Part shown: piece by piece, positions 16,002 to 31,281 of the stretch
Position numbering within the stretch: position 1 is the stretch's first letter
Layout of the letters: the number at the start of each line of letters is the position of its first letter
Assembly (NCBI GenBank): GCA_013816615.1
Contig: JACDED010000029.1
Span: 1 to 37,603, forward strand
Direction: 5' to 3'
From: Bacteroidota bacterium
GTDB taxonomy: Bacteria > Bacteroidota > Bacteroidia > B-17B0 > Aurantibacillaceae
Length of the DNA: 37,603 nt
Position numbers and translations under genes: made by a program
The notes under the pieces: model-generated
The model's database searches: none
What the model saw: only the letters and a program-made list of their open reading frames with translations
What the model was told of the DNA's origin: nothing

Positions 16002-16043
16002 CTTAGGCAACAAGTATATTCACAACTTAAAAAAAAACGAAAA

Positions 16044-23692: not shown

Positions 23693-23718
23693 GTTTTTTT
23701 TTTTGGTTCTTATTTATA

Positions 23719-25806: not shown

Positions 25807-26760
25807 ATGAAAATAAATAAGGCAATTGATAAAGTTGATTCAATAAATATCAAAGATTTTAACAAAAATTATTTTAAGCCACAAAAACCTCTTTTGATAA
25901 AAGGATTGGCAGACCACTACCCTGCCGGAAAAAAATGGACCGTTGACTACTTAAAAGAACTTTGTGGCGACGTAACTGTAGATATTTTCGATAGTAATAA
26001 TAAAGATACATCCTCATCAGCTTTTACAACCCCGGATCTTAAAATGAAATTTAAAGAGTATGTGGATACGATCCTTAAAGATGAACCATCAAGCCTTCGT
26101 ATGTTTCTTTTTAACATGTTTAAATGCAAACCCGAGTTAAGAAAAGATTTTCCATGCCCTTATATGTTTAAAGGCCTACTTGGTAAAATTGGTTATATGT
26201 TCTTTGGAAGTAAAAATACAAAAGTGCGTATTCACCAGGATATTGACATGTCAAATGTATTGCTTACACAATTTCATGGCCGCAAAAGAGTAGTTTTAAT
26301 TTCGCCAGAATTTTCTGATCTTTTATACAGACTTCCCTTTAATACTTATTCATTAGTAGATCTTGACAATCCTGATTATAATAAATACCCGGGCTTAGCC
26401 TATGTTGAAGCAGATGAATATATTTTAGAACCCGGCGATGCTTTATATATGCCTAGCGGATACTGGCATTACATTACTTACCTTGATGGTGGCTTTGCAG
26501 TGAGTTACCGAAAGCTTGCTGCCAGTTTAAAAATGAAATTAATTGGTGCTTTCTCATTAACAGTTTATATGCCGATCGATAAATTATTGAATTCTATATT
26601 CGGTAAAAAATGGCTTTCGTATAAAGAACACATTGCAGAAGTTCGCGCAAATAAAGCTATCATAAAAAAAATACTTTCTGCAGGTTATGTAATTAAAGAA
26701 GAAAAAATGCAAAAGCCGTATTACGATCATGCATCACAATTACGCACAGATCATAGATAA
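25807..26760 (+). CDS. JmjC/cupin-8-like Fe(II) 2-oxoglutarate oxygenase
   Basis: 317 residues. The start NYFKPQKPLLIKGLADHYPA is the usual entry of cupin_8/JmjC-like proteins. The metal triad is visible: H143 and D145 (RIHQDIDMSN), H221 (SGYWHYI). LLTQFHGRKRVVLISPE lies between them, and ILEPGDALYMPSGYWHY is the typical last strand pair. The C-terminal 75 residues are helical. It should be a cytoplasmic Fe(II)/2-oxoglutarate hydroxylase acting on a protein or small substrate that cannot be named. It is a single-gene unit preceded by site K, ending 2 bases from the convergent LigD-POL stop with no terminator between. Confidence 0.85.
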   Translation: MKINKAIDKVDSINIKDFNKNYFKPQKPLLIKGLADHYPAGKKWTVDYLKELCGDVTVDIFDSNNKDTSSSAFTTPDLKMKFKEYVDTILKDEPSSLRMFLFNMFKCKPELRKDFPCPYMFKGLLGKIGYMFFGSKNTKVRIHQDIDMSNVLLTQFHGRKRVVLISPEFSDLLYRLPFNTYSLVDLDNPDYNKYPGLAYVEADEYILEPGDALYMPSGYWHYITYLDGGFAVSYRKLAASLKMKLIGAFSLTVYMPIDKLLNSIFGKKWLSYKEHIAEVRANKAIIKKILSAGYVIKEEKMQKPYYDHASQLRTDHR

Positions 26761-26762
26761 TT

Positions 26763-27683
26763 TTATTGATCTAAATTTTTAAGACATTTATTAAGATCAA
26801 TACCTTTTCCTAAAATACCGGTGAAAATATCGCCGGTTTTTTTTATGCGTTTTAAAACAGAATAAATAGTAAAATCCATCGGCGTTAAACCGCTTTTTAC
26901 TTCTTTCCAGAATAAAGGTGTTGAAACTGTTGCGCCTTCTTTTGGCCTTACACTGTAAACGCTTGCTATTGTTTGCCCGCGGCGGTTTTGTAAATGATCA
27001 AGATATATTTTATTATTGCCGCGTTTTTTTAAATTCCGTTCCAAAGTTGTAAACTTTGGCAATAACTCCTGGGTAAATATACAAACAAGATGTGCAAAAT
27101 CTTTTACCTGATCATAAGTATATTTTTTTTGCATAGGTATATAAATATGCAAACCTGTTGCGCCCGAGGTTTTGCAAAAACAGCTTGCTCCTGCCCTGTC
27201 TAAAACTTCTTTTACGGCATTCGCAGTTTCAATTACCTGTTCAAATGTGTTTTTTTCGGAAGGATCAAGGTCTATTACTAAATAATCAGGTTTATCCAAA
27301 GCTTTAGTGGTAGAATGCCAGGGATTTATTTCTATGCATCCTAAATTATTTAAATAAGCCAAAGTCGCTTTATTATTACATAAAATATAATCAATATCTT
27401 TTTTTGTTGATTCAGAATAGATCTTTATACTTTCAACCCAGCCTGGCGCCTCATCCCCGGCATCTTTGTGGTAAAACCCGGGTTTACCAATGCCGTTTGG
27501 TGTACGCATTAATGATTGAGGTCTACCTTTTAAATATGGCATTATATAATCACTCATACTTTGATAATAATTAATTACATCTCCCTTGGTGATCTTTTCT
27601 CTTGGCCAAAAGATTTTTGAAAGGTTTGTTACGGGTACCTTTATTTTTCCAAACGATAGTGTATTCTCTGCGGTTGTTTCCAT
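26763..27683 (-). CDS. ligD: LigD polymerase (primase-like) domain as a separate ORF
   Basis: 306 residues, the POL domain of LigD. It begins FGKIKVPVTNLSKIFWPREK, the usual POL entry. Catalytic residues are visible: D138 and D140 (LVIDLDPSE), H179 (GLHIY), D229 (YLDHLQNRRGQ). In NHEJ it adds ribo- or deoxynucleotides at break ends. It is in the same frame as the ligase ORF, from which only one TAA (27726-27728) plus 14 sense codons (a Lys-rich linker) separate it. It is therefore the C-terminal third of a PE-LIG-POL LigD made separate by one stop codon. The ATG at 27681-27683 has no clear ribosome site, so a separate start, read-through or coupling are all possible. Confidence 0.92.
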   Translation of the reverse strand: METTAENTLSFGKIKVPVTNLSKIFWPREKITKGDVINYYQSMSDYIMPYLKGRPQSLMRTPNGIGKPGFYHKDAGDEAPGWVESIKIYSESTKKDIDYILCNNKATLAYLNNLGCIEINPWHSTTKALDKPDYLVIDLDPSEKNTFEQVIETANAVKEVLDRAGASCFCKTSGATGLHIYIPMQKKYTYDQVKDFAHLVCIFTQELLPKFTTLERNLKKRGNNKIYLDHLQNRRGQTIASVYSVRPKEGATVSTPLFWKEVKSGLTPMDFTIYSVLKRIKKTGDIFTGILGKGIDLNKCLKNLDQ

Positions 27684-27725
27684 TTTCGAAACCTCTTTGG
27701 TTTTTTTTACGCTTGCTTTTTTAAC

Positions 27726-28655
27726 TTATTTCTTCTCGCTTTTTTTTGCAATTGTTTTTTTTGCTTTAATGGTTACTTCTTTTGCTTTTTTATCGTTTCT
27801 TAATCTTAAAAATATCGGGTGGCGCATATGTCCGTCCCTTGTAAATTCTGTATGTTTAATTTCACATACTAAAATGGGTTTAACCCAGGTTACAGGCATA
27901 TTGGTTTTTACTTTTTCTTTAAATGGAGATTCTTTTTGAATTAGAGGCTTTAATAACCTGCTCATTTTTTCCAGAGATTCATAATTGAATCCTGAACCTG
28001 TATGACCAACATATTTTAATTCTTTTCCATCACGAATACCCAGCACCAATGCGCCAAAATGTTTTCGTGAACCGGCTGGATTTGTAAACCCTGCAATTAT
28101 TGCCTCCTGCGAATGGTGGTGTTTTATTTTTAACCATTCTTTTGTCCTTACACCCGGATGATAAAAAGAATCGGCTTTTTTAGCCATTATTCCTTCCAGG
28201 TTACGCTCTTTCGCTATCTCAAAAAATTCTTCTCCATACTCTTCAATATGATCGGAGTATTTTATAACATCATTTGCTTTTAATAATTTTTTAAGAAGTT
28301 TTTTTCTTTCGAGTAACGTCAGATCGGTTGTACTTGTTTCATTAATGGATAGGACATCAAAAACATAATATAAAATAGGGTGATCAGAATCGCTATCGTA
28401 ATGTTGTAGTAATTGAAAACTTGGATCGCCATTATCATTCAACACAACGATCTCACCATCTAAAACGGCATTTATCTTTAATTTTTTAAGCTCTTGAACA
28501 ACTATCGGATAAGATTCATTAAATGTATATCCGTTTCTTGAATATAATGAAACGTTTGCTCCCTCTACTTCGGCTATAGCTCTGTAACCATCCCATTTAA
28601 TTTCATAGATCCAATCCTTATCGCTAAATACTGTTGAAGATTCTTTAGCCAACAT
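27726..28655 (-). CDS. ligD: LigD ATP-dependent DNA ligase domain as a separate ORF
   Basis: 309 residues from the ATG at 28655, at the MLAKE that normally follows the interdomain linker in LigD. The nucleotidyl lysine is K20 (YEIKWDGYR); later motifs include LDGEIVVLN, LEGIMAKKADSFYHPGVRTK and EWLKIKH, and the C-terminal OB-fold contains KYVGHTGSGF. It seals breaks in NHEJ. Its frame is open further upstream through 24 sense codons (reading KKVKYLPGKTRKLENYIQP), a typical LigD linker, up to the A10 tract at 28729-28738, where TAA (28737-28739) closes it. It joins the PE domain frame only by a -1 shift in that tract. The C-terminal end is Lys-rich. Confidence 0.92.
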   Translation of the reverse strand: MLAKESSTVFSDKDWIYEIKWDGYRAIAEVEGANVSLYSRNGYTFNESYPIVVQELKKLKINAVLDGEIVVLNDNGDPSFQLLQHYDSDSDHPILYYVFDVLSINETSTTDLTLLERKKLLKKLLKANDVIKYSDHIEEYGEEFFEIAKERNLEGIMAKKADSFYHPGVRTKEWLKIKHHHSQEAIIAGFTNPAGSRKHFGALVLGIRDGKELKYVGHTGSGFNYESLEKMSRLLKPLIQKESPFKEKVKTNMPVTWVKPILVCEIKHTEFTRDGHMRHPIFLRLRNDKKAKEVTIKAKKTIAKKSEKK

Positions 28656-28702
28656 GGGCTGAATGTAATTTTCCAGCTTTCTTGTTTTTCCCGGAAGGTA
28701 CT

Positions 28703-29389
28703 TTACTTTTTTGGATTCGCTTTCCGGCTTTTTTTTTTAATGGTAGCTGTCTTTTTGGCCGCTACCTTTTTCGGAGCAGATCCTGGCTTAGGTTCAGGTT
28801 TATCTTCGGCTTTTTTATTTTTTGCTAACCACTTATTTATAGGAGAACTTTTTGGTGTTTTATCTTCGCTATTGTATTCTTCATCAACGGCGTATTTATC
28901 TCTGTGCTTAATAAGTAGCCAGGCATTTTCCTGTTTACCTCTTAACTTAACAAGCGCAAATTCGCCTTTTAGTTTTTTTCCATGTAAGGTAAATTTAAGA
29001 TTGCCCGCTTTTAATCCTGCTTTTAATTTTTTTTCTGTTGTAGCGGTATCCGAATTATCAATATCCGAAAGTGCGCCTGTATCCCATACTTCAACAATAC
29101 CTGCTCCATAATTTCCTTCAGGAATAATGCCTGCAAAATTTCTGTAGCTATAGGGATGGTCTTCTACCATCATTGCTAAGCGCTTATCTTGTGGGTTTAA
29201 CGACGGACCTTTTGGAACAGCCCAACTTTTTAATGTGCCATCCATTTCCAATCTAAAATCGTAATGCAAATGAGATGCTTTATGACGCTGCACAACAAAA
29301 ATTAATTTTGAAGCAGATTTTTTCAGAGTTCCTGAAGGCTCGGGGGTATCCTTAAAATTTCTTTTTTTATTATATAGCTTTAAACTCAT
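28703..29389 (-). CDS. ligD: LigD 3'-phosphoesterase (PE) domain as a separate ORF
   Basis: 228 residues. PE domain about 25-165 with the metal site HKASHLHYD (H36, H42, D44) and H78 (EDHPYSYRN), matching in spacing the catalytic residues of Pseudomonas LigD; YGAGIVEVWDTG follows. It trims 3' ends before ligation. Residues 185-228 are a Lys/Pro/Ala-rich tail like the PE-LIG linker. The tail crosses an A10 run (28729-28738); in the -1 frame after that run the reading continues into the ligase ORF. Here it ends 25 bases later at TAA (28703-28705). It starts 1 base after the Ku stop, so is coupled to Ku. Confidence 0.92.
   Translation of the reverse strand: MSLKLYNKKRNFKDTPEPSGTLKKSASKLIFVVQRHKASHLHYDFRLEMDGTLKSWAVPKGPSLNPQDKRLAMMVEDHPYSYRNFAGIIPEGNYGAGIVEVWDTGALSDIDNSDTATTEKKLKAGLKAGNLKFTLHGKKLKGEFALVKLRGKQENAWLLIKHRDKYAVDEEYNSEDKTPKSSPINKWLAKNKKAEDKPEPKPGSAPKKVAAKKTATIKKKSRKANPKK
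28729..28738 (-). promoter_or_regulatory. A10 slippery tract at the PE-LIG frame junction
   Basis: Coding-strand A10 followed by GCC. The PE frame reads ATT AAA AAA AAA AGC; it contains A AAA AAA, a possible -1 slip site. A -1 shift, or one extra A, joins the PE frame to the LIG frame without a stop, giving PE-LIG in one chain. Seen directly; whether it is real slippage or a sequencing or mutational indel cannot be told. Confidence 0.6.
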
Positions 29390-29390
29390 A

Positions 29391-30170
29391 TTAAGATGCT
29401 TTTTTACGCTTGGTTCCTAAACTTGCTTTTAACTGGCTCATCAGGTCTTTTGATTTACTGTGTACGACTTTTAATTTTGAAGCCTTAACGGGCTTTCCTT
29501 TTGATTTCGCTTTAATAAGCTTCATCAGATCGGCACTGTAGGTATCCTTATATTTTGAAATATTAAATTTGCCGGTTAACTGACTTATTAATGAAACGGC
29601 CATTTTTAATTCGTTTGCTTTAACGGCTGTTTTTGCAGGCAATGAAAGATCGGCAGGATCACGTATCTCTTCGTGAAAACGAATACGGTTTAAAATAATT
29701 ACTTTTTCGTTGGCACGTAAAATAGCAAGACTTTCTTTACTTCTCATTACAAACGTTGCAACGCCAACCTTACCGGTTTTCATTAAAGCTTCCCTTAACA
29801 AAGCATATGCGCGTGCTCCTGATTTTTCAGGTTCCAGGTAATAAGGTGTTTCATAATAAACACTTTCTATTTCTTCTTCCTTTACAAAATCAGTGATTTC
29901 GATCGTTTTTGTTTTTTTTGCGCTGGCAGATTCAAAATCTTTATCTGTTAAAACCACATAATCATCATTTGGTAGTTTAAACCCTTTTACAATGTTAGCC
30001 CACTCTACTTCTTTTCCTGTTTTTTCGTTTACACGCATAAACTTGATATTTGAATGGTCTTTTTTATCGAGCATATCCAGGTCGAGCGTACTGGATTCTG
30101 TTGCGCTATATAATTTTACCGGTATATTTACAAGGCCAAAGCCTATTGCTCCTGTCCAAATTGATCTCAT
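29391..30170 (-). CDS. ku: Ku protein, non-homologous end joining
   Basis: 259 residues from the ATG at 30168-30170, giving [20 protein letters not shown], the canonical bacterial Ku start. A start at 30203 would add 11 residues that overlap the topoisomerase gene and is not favoured. The Ku beta-barrel includes [39 protein letters not shown] and RFHEEIRDP. The Lys-rich C-terminus (from about 220) matches the region that aids DNA sliding and LigD binding. It binds broken DNA ends as a homodimer and recruits LigD. It is encoded between topoisomerase IB (4-base gap) and the LigD PE domain (1-base gap). Confidence 0.95.
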
Positions 30171-30174
30171 ATAT

Positions 30175-31281
30175 TTATTTTTTTTGCATTGATTCTTTTT
30201 CAAATATTTTCATCAGTACTTTTTCTTCAGCCGTCAGATCTGTTTTGTTATCATTTACTTCTATCTTATCTAAGGATTTAAAATAATTCTCAATACGTTT
30301 ATCTTCAAATAATGAAATAACAATTGGGTGCACATAATATTTTTTACACACATTACGTGTATTACCTAGTTGTTCTGAAACTATATCCAAAGCCTCCACT
30401 ATTCTCTTTTTTGTTTCAGTTTGCGTATCGCAGCAACCGAGCGATCTGAATGCCAAAAATGCATGAATAGTGCCAGACCAGGTTCTGAAATCCTTAGCAG
30501 AAAAATCTTTACCGCTGATTTTTTTTATGTATTCATTCACCATACCTGAATCTATCGTATGGTGATTTTTATTTTCATCCAAATACTGAAACAATTCTTT
30601 ACCCGGAATATCGCGGCATTTTTTTACAAGTGAAGCCAATCGTTTATTATTAACGCTAATAGAATGATTAATGCCCTTTTTTCCTTTAAATGTAAATTGT
30701 ATTTTATTGCCGGAAAATCTTACATGTTTATCTTTTAATGTTGTAAGGCCGTACGAGCCATAAAGTTTTTCATATAAACCATTACCCACTCTTATATTTG
30801 TTCTTTCCATAAGGCTTACAACTAACGCAAGAATTTTCTCCAGCGGTAAACCGGGCAGCGAAAGATCTTTTTCTAACTGCAAACGTATTTGAGGTAAGGC
30901 AGTACCAAATTCATATAAACGATAAAACTTTGTATGATTTCGTAACGAATTCCATAGGCCGTGATACTTATATTGTTTTCTTTTTTTAAGATCAACACCC
31001 GTTGCCTGTAAATGACCATTATCCAGCAAACAGATCCAAACATTTTCCCATGCCGGTGGAATCACTAATTTTTTAATTCTTTCTAATTCTTTTTTATCGC
31101 TTAGTTTTTTATCTTTTAAAAGGTATTGAAAATTCTTTCCTTTTTTCACGCGGCGTATTCCGGGTTCAGCATCTTTTACATAAACCAGGTTAACAGCTTC
31201 AGCACTCTTTACGGAATTTTTAAGAATAGAAGTTATCTTTTTTGGACTGAGCTTAATTATTTCATCTGCAAGTGCTAACAT
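30175..31281 (-). CDS. DNA topoisomerase IB, poxvirus-like
   Basis: 368 residues. N-terminal DNA-binding part (30-115) with [14 protein letters not shown] and [14 protein letters not shown]; catalytic part with ERTNIRVGN (R164), [14 protein letters not shown] (K185), [12 protein letters not shown] (R266, H273) and the active tyrosine in VCKKYYVHP (Y316 most likely). These match the poxvirus-like bacterial topoisomerase IB enzymes, which relax both positive and negative supercoils through a 3'-phosphotyrosine. It is joined to Ku with a 4-base gap and follows SDR and oxidoreductase genes. Such enzymes are often found beside NHEJ or stress genes. Confidence 0.93.

Follow-up and report, generated by a model that had tools for sequence, protein, structure and literature searches.

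The gene for the DNA ligase LigD in a bacterium of the Bacteroidota (family Aurantibacillaceae) is likely to be expressed by a programmed frameshift, which would join the 3'-phosphoesterase (PE) domain to the ATP-dependent DNA ligase (LIG) domain at a tract of nine or ten consecutive A's. It is located on the minus strand of the window, which means here the complete stretch of 37,603 nucleotides (nt) that was analyzed, one whole contig (C37; JACDED010000029.1) of the 246-contig draft genome GCA_013816615.1. The locus has the composition of a LigD, with PE, LIG, and primase-polymerase (POL) coding regions and a Ku gene nearby, and the three domains align with their Pfam models over almost the whole length. 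They do not form one continuous open reading frame (ORF), being separated by a −1 frame change between PE and LIG (junction 1) and by an in-frame TAA between LIG and POL (junction 2). Judged by sequence comparison, the tract of A's, the −1 relation, and the coding of the LIG frame from the tract to the first Met of LIG are kept across many species. Recoding of one kind or the other at junction 1 is highly probable, and transcriptional slippage is probably its main route.

RNA polymerase would slip on the tract, with one A added to a fraction of the transcripts. Free PE would be translated as the default product from the unslipped mRNA, and slipped mRNA would yield PE-LIG in the window and PE-LIG-POL in its nearest relatives. 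With this slip, the window would give rise to PE-LIG with 554 amino acids (aa) alongside PE with 228 aa and POL with 306 aa. In relatives with an in-frame tract, slippage would work in reverse, leading mostly to full LigD and to some free PE. For the broader proposal, the chances are about even: LigD may be a two-product gene in the Chitinophagaceae and related Bacteroidia, with selection keeping the A9/A10 tract and not the frame and with polymerase slippage setting the ratio of free PE to ligase.

The frame change in the window

PE and LIG are encoded in different frames. The PE frame passes through the tract as ATT AAA AAA AAA AGC, so that A_AAA_AAA is in phase, and the LIG frame is open from position 28736, directly after the TAA at 28739 to 28737. 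The frame switch is confined to an overlap of 34 nt that holds most of the A10 tract. In 10 other loci with the −1 relation, the LIG frame likewise opens 1 to 2 nt into the tract. A homopolymer of about nine or more A's or T's at the frame transition, as looked for in genes with programmed transcriptional slippage such as dnaX, mxiE, tssM, and those of insertion sequences (IS), is present with this A10. Runs of at least nine A's or T's occur in the window at 16029 to 16037, 23694 to 23704, and 28729 to 28738, and the last of these is the only one inside a listed ORF of at least 100 aa.

One added A would result in the 554-aa PE-LIG chain, and if the second TAA was ignored too, the chain would comprise 875 aa by arithmetic, as had been estimated in a preliminary description of the locus. 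Frame translation reproduced all coordinates of that description, those of the A10 tract and both TAA codons among them.

Sample of LigD loci

Loci for comparison came from the family of the window's bacterium (87 genomes covered by the search), its class, two further families, a small related order, titled records, and 80 added stretches. From the list of one large family, 30 places were taken as loci and 80 more were added by rank; four turned out to be duplicates. Two places, G746 and the second place in G635, were passed over, and lower-ranked and unlisted places stayed outside the sample, which leans therefore to relatives of the window's LIG. This large family is labeled Chitinophagaceae-like here because of 200 nt in PE that were identical to those of Segetibacter, Sediminibacterium, and Flavipsychrobacter loci.

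A LIG identity of at least 38% was required, and 192 distinct loci were obtained from 242. Dropped were 34 loci below this identity, 1 without a LIG match, 13 duplicates with identical 200 nt in PE, and the archaeal loci L063 and L065, in which PE was not upstream of LIG. These two loci, from Bathyarchaeota, have the order POL, LIG, PE, with POL in a frame different from that of LIG and PE. The 192 loci comprised 189 from Bacteroidota, two from chlamydiae (L060 and L061), and one archaeal locus with a fused gene (L064). PE and LIG were fused in 110 loci, in the −1 relation in 57, in the +1 relation in 7, and separated by a stop without a frame change in 4; the remaining 14 had no PE match, and some of these (e.g., L009 and L023) were cut by contig ends.

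A9 and A10 tracts at the joint between PE and LIG

The nearest loci found, L004 with 79% and L030 with 77% LIG identity, both contain an A10 tract with LIG in −1 and form one clade with the window, supported at 99% in the Shimodaira-Hasegawa-like approximate likelihood ratio test (SH-aLRT). Within the overlap of the PE and LIG frames, 54 of the 57 −1 loci possess an A9 (40 loci) or A10 (14 loci) tract, none of them a longer one, and the base following the tract is a G in 49 of these 54. When linker codons were resampled according to the codon usage of the gene, tracts of at least nine A's were expected in 12.5 of the 57 loci. Fused loci contained A9 or A10 in 49 of 110 cases, compared to an expectation of 29.7. 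The linkers between LIG and POL of the same genes are also rich in Lys, yet tracts of this length occur in 10 of 153 such linkers, with 17.3 expected, and within the domain bodies the number of runs declines from 101 A8 to 9 A9 and 2 A10 over 373,050 nt. Tracts of at least nine A's are scarce elsewhere yet above expectation at the PE/LIG joint, as would be the case in a slippage gene, and this indicates that they are kept at this joint.

Among the out-of-frame loci with at least nine A's, 54 were in −1 and 2 in +1 (p = 4e-14 when independence is assumed, which the loci do not have). The near-absence of +1, 2 of 56, fits an added A or a ribosomal −1 slip but not a random drift of tract length. 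The −1 relation with A9 or A10 exists also in genomes consisting of a single contig, those of L109 (G371) and L138 (G839). L191 was not used as a finished-genome example because its POL match has a late start and lies in a frame other than that of LIG.

Regulated slippage at the A10 tract, as suggested in the preliminary description, has gained strong support from these data, since L004, L030, and 51 further loci are also −1 at A9 or A10. This sharing makes a homopolymer error, the alternative considered there, improbable. Sister genomes with a continuous LigD and no conserved run of A's had been named as the outcome pointing to an error or a fresh mutation, and the opposite was found, both the run and the −1 relation being shared. 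Judged by these relatives, junction 1 is neither decay nor an assembly error.

Coding between the tract and the first Met of LIG

In the 54 tract-bearing −1 loci, the segment from the tract to the conserved PMLA motif of LIG contains no ATG, GTG, or TTG in 27 cases, GTG or TTG only in 16, and an ATG in 11. The segment of the window terminates in ...YLPGKTRKLENYIQP, and those of relatives are similar. In 11 pairs of −1 loci without ATG, one of them with the window, 67, 58, and 140 changes were counted at LIG codon positions 1, 2, and 3, respectively. The same pairs aligned as bare nucleotides, blind to the frame, gave 66, 57, and 133 changes in 834 in-phase columns. Translation in the other two frames shifted the position of the excess, and residues were then equal at 113 of 277 and 110 of 264 sites, compared to 180 of 283 in the LIG frame. 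For seven pairs, including the window, in which neither member had an ATG, GTG, or TTG, the counts were 48, 42, and 90 in 513 in-phase columns (p = 1e-5). Both sets of pairs were hand-picked, with no locus used twice within a set, and some of the 11 contain GTG or TTG. These counts are evidence that the segment before PMLA is coding in the LIG frame, which holds across the set and is no proof for the individual locus. LIG-frame coding ahead of any usual start codon calls for an entry from the PE frame.

The occurrence of start codons is related to that of the tracts. Among 68 nonfused loci, an in-frame ATG before PMLA was present in 10 of 12 loci without a run of at least nine A's and in 11 of 56 with such a run (Fisher p = 5e-5). 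In a Chitinophagaceae-like clade (L145, L152, L153, L170, and L175), PE, LIG, and POL are separate ORFs lacking such a tract, their frame relations vary, and each LIG has an upstream ATG. This looks like a true fission of LigD into three genes, and the −1 class is unlike it.

Stability between relatives

Of the 33 closest pairs, with at least 75% LIG identity and no shared locus, 30 agree in frame state and in the presence of a tract of at least nine A's, 20 with equal tract lengths and 10 without a tract. Two of the other three pairs differ in the tract only and one in the state (L187, A9 and −1, versus L188, A10 and fused). In L187 and L221, both A9 and −1, compared to their near relative L188, the arrangement seems to be switched by a single A of the tract. 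A quick LG+G4 tree was calculated from 178 LIG proteins, with weak support for 57 of its 175 inner branches. On this tree, the state changed between −1 and fused 20 times, compared to a mean of 47 after 30 shuffles of the labels. Frequent changes of tract or frame between close relatives, as should be visible in a phase-variable gene, were not observed; the agreement of the pairs and the small number of state changes speak against fast phase variation.

Within a −1 clade, L184 (A8) and L197 (A7) are without the usual frame relation and without an ATG before PMLA, which reads as decayed alleles or assembly errors.

The predicted free PE

The PE frame of the −1 class ends a median of 8 nt after the tract, versus 22 nt when this frame is followed in fused loci with A9 or A10 (p = 9e-4); the control distance from AAA to a stop in LIG bodies is 24 nt. 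This suggests that the free PE of the −1 class may have a short, selected end. A free PE is known from archaea, where it works with Pol and Lig as separate proteins of one operon, as described in passages of PMC4797286.

RNA polymerase or ribosome

A ribosomal −1 frameshift on A_AAA_AA(A/G) within the tract of a normal mRNA is unlikely to explain junction 1. Its direction would be correct, and A_AA.A_AA.G is listed in parts of PMC4066793 among the most efficient motifs in Escherichia coli when stimulators are given. The A_AAA_AAG phase is present in 28 of the 40 −1 loci with A9 versus 16 of 36 fused loci with A9, and this preference, which weighs against a purely transcriptional slip, hints at a ribosomal share. 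With runs of at least eight A's included, the heptamer is in phase in 34 of 55 −1 loci having the run in the overlap, in 33 of 60 fused loci, and in 20 of 158 LIG-POL linkers. However, A_AAA_AAG requires six A's and a G only, yet nearly all −1 loci contain 9 to 10 A's. Selection against A/T runs becomes evident at a length of nine in a large share of bacterial genomes (in the section of PMC1088944 concerned). All three codon phases of the tract occur among the −1 loci, with 12 of 40 A9 tracts in phases other than that of the heptamer. Neither was there a signal of downstream RNA structure in the 60 nt following the tract of 54 loci, with a mean z of −0.44 versus −0.14 in 114 control windows and z below −2 in 7.4% of the loci versus 7.0% of the controls, pseudoknots not being modeled. 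Nine or more A's where the heptamer needs fewer, the use of all phases, and the missing structure signal favor slippage of RNA polymerase. Both routes may act together.

Other explanations and points against a frameshift

Evaluation of the frameshift needs to consider also that PE and LIG may be two genes, with LIG started separately by translational coupling at an A-rich initiation region formed by the tract. Bacteroidota initiate translation without Shine-Dalgarno sites, overlapping starts likewise yield a −1 relation, and the Met of PMLA itself could be the start of LIG. In some of the 11 tract-bearing −1 loci with an ATG between tract and PMLA (e.g., L035, L129, and L135), this codon overlaps the PE stop, and TGATG, TAATG, or ATGA occur as such overlaps; plain translational coupling would do at these ATG loci. 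Two genes are nevertheless quite improbable as an explanation for the class because most of its members offer no ATG, and half of them no usual start codon at all, yet the LIG frame is under selection before PMLA even in the pairs free of these codons; moreover, tract-free split loci, where starts exist, show varied frame relations. Alternatively, the length of the tract may differ between cells and switch LIG on and off. A9 and A10 tracts are mutable in length, and L187 and L221 are one A apart from L188. Such a phase variation at the DNA level is very improbable, since random changes in length predict +1 as often as −1 and since state and tract are the same in most of the closest pairs. An error of the assembly, or fresh mutations that inactivate the gene in this genome, would agree with the draft status of the assembly and with a second TAA that is absent from L004 and L030. 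This is hardly credible in view of the −1 relation with A10 in these two nearest relatives, its occurrence with A9 or A10 in the single-contig genomes, and changes biased to the third codon position in all three domains.

Several results weigh against a programmed frameshift at the tract or limit its reach. In addition to the ATG loci and the heptamer phase, 3 of the 57 −1 loci have no tract of at least nine A's. For 13 pairs on starred branches, an independent-pairs test of frame state versus tract gave no significant result (median p = 0.375), and it neither supports nor refutes a link between the two. In the fused loci with A9 or A10, a stop follows the slip site at 22 and 21 nt, compared to 28 and 29 nt within LIG bodies, which is not short, and stops within 10 nt are fewer than in the control. 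A selected free PE is supported therefore for the −1 class only. A short distance from slip to stop in fused loci had been considered as backing for the two-state model and was not found.

The stop between LIG and POL

LIG and POL of the window share one frame, and the preliminary description was correct in placing nothing but the TAA and 14 sense codons between them. In 167 of the 184 loci that have both domains, including L004 and L030, LIG and POL form one open frame; it is interrupted in the other 17, to which the window belongs. POL of the window possesses its own ATG 42 nt past the stop with AAA just before it. When the broken loci only were compared, a similar Met-Glu-Thr at the start of POL was present in three others, L041, L042, and L197. 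Between the window and L004, 242 of 300 residues are equal in POL and 234 of 296 in LIG, and POL changes no faster than LIG in this comparison nor in that with L030. These data fit a putative recent fission in this lineage that would be separate from junction 1, and translation of POL most likely reinitiates at its own ATG on the same mRNA.

Read-through of the TAA, which had been proposed, was rejected in view of the open LIG-POL frame of L004 and L030 together with the ATG of POL. One mechanism for both linkers found no support either: junction 1 is common to many species, and the nearest relatives lack junction 2.

Relation to known systems and biological meaning

The class of mechanism is known, and the gene and the breadth, many Bacteroidia species with both arrangements, are new. 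The dnaX gene of Thermus thermophilus is similar in that an A9 within the coding sequence of a gene for DNA metabolism leads by transcriptional slippage to two products, tau and gamma (according to passages in PMC1088944). Its long form is in frame, whereas the long form of the LigD −1 class needs the slip. The tssM1 gene of Citrobacter rodentium and tssM3 of Yersinia pseudotuberculosis share poly(A) transcriptional frameshifting in both arrangements, the slip leading to the long form in Citrobacter and to the short form in Yersinia; in C. rodentium, an A11 is located 28 nt before the stop, and the slipped fractions are about 20% and 15 to 25% for the tssM pair (all in the tssM sections of PMC4256274). 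These are genes of a secretion system, and the two arrangements of LigD extend over many species and are known here from sequence alone.

With conventional three-domain LigD, the window shares the adjoining Ku gene and the order PE-LIG-POL and differs by the interrupted frame. In the nonhomologous end joining (NHEJ) system of the archaeon Methanocella paludicola, PE, Pol, and Lig are separate and the free PE works with the other two (described in part of PMC4797286); there, the genes are independent, in contrast to LIG in the −1 loci with a tract, half of which offer it no start codon ahead of PMLA. If a frameshift joins PE and LIG, programmed frameshifting would govern the expression of a central enzyme of DNA break repair in a large group of bacteria from the environment, and such LigD genes may be listed by gene callers as pseudogenes or as separate genes. 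It would also amend the statement, made in a section of the survey PMC7719229, that NHEJ in all Bacteroidetes possessing it is of the conventional single-chain, three-domain form, and it would offer a natural system to understand why cells need free PE in addition to fused LigD and how the proportion of domains is set by slippage.

A literature search, made on lists of papers, found no report of LigD with frameshifting or transcriptional slippage, none of LigD and phosphoesterase in separate genes, and, by title, none on the subject for LigD in Chitinophaga. No DNA ligase D was found when the GeneTack survey (PMC3711429) and the first 300,000 characters of a recoding review (PMC5009743) were searched for ligase or LigD.

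Features of the locus and its surroundings

The order of genes on the minus strand is DNA topoisomerase IB, Ku, PE, LIG, and POL, and Ku is located directly upstream of PE in L004 and L030 as well. The likely ATG start of Ku was chosen by the analyst; the listed ORF begins with a TTG at 30203.

Table 1. Coordinates of the LigD locus and of the elements at its two junctions
Feature	Position	Strand	Remark
Ku gene	29391..30170	−	Pfam Ku 2.7e-50; directly upstream of PE
PE ORF of LigD	28703..29389	−	228 aa; Pfam LigD_N 9.1e-42
LIG-frame TAA straddling the start of the tract	28737..28739	−	Limits the frame shift to the tract or to the overlap of 34 nt
A10 tract, proposed slip site	28729..28738	−	From sequence; A9/A10 in the overlap of 54/57 −1 loci
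PE-frame stop TAA	28703..28705	−	23 nt past the tract
Segment from the tract to the first LIG Met	28656..28728	−	LIG frame open, without ATG/GTG/TTG
LIG	27726..28655	−	309 aa from the first ATG (conserved Met of PMLA) to TAA; Pfam DNA_ligase_A_M 6.7e-37, DNA_ligase_A_C 5.7e-29
In-frame TAA between LIG and POL	27726..27728	−	Absent from L004 and L030
Lys-rich sense codons (14), TAA to POL ATG	27684..27725	−	From frame translation
POL ORF, own ATG	26763..27683	−	306 aa; Pfam LigD_Prim-Pol 6.4e-88

A cupin/JmjC-like ORF (25807 to 26760) on the plus strand is convergent to the LigD gene and ends 2 bases short of the end of POL. The run at 23694 to 23704 is a T11 between listed ORFs and the longest A/T run of the window. 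The genome contains a second LigD, L002 (G000:C134:1509-2438), with about 45% LIG identity, which is an open frame of 708 aa with LIG and POL and has no PE match within 1.5 kb upstream.

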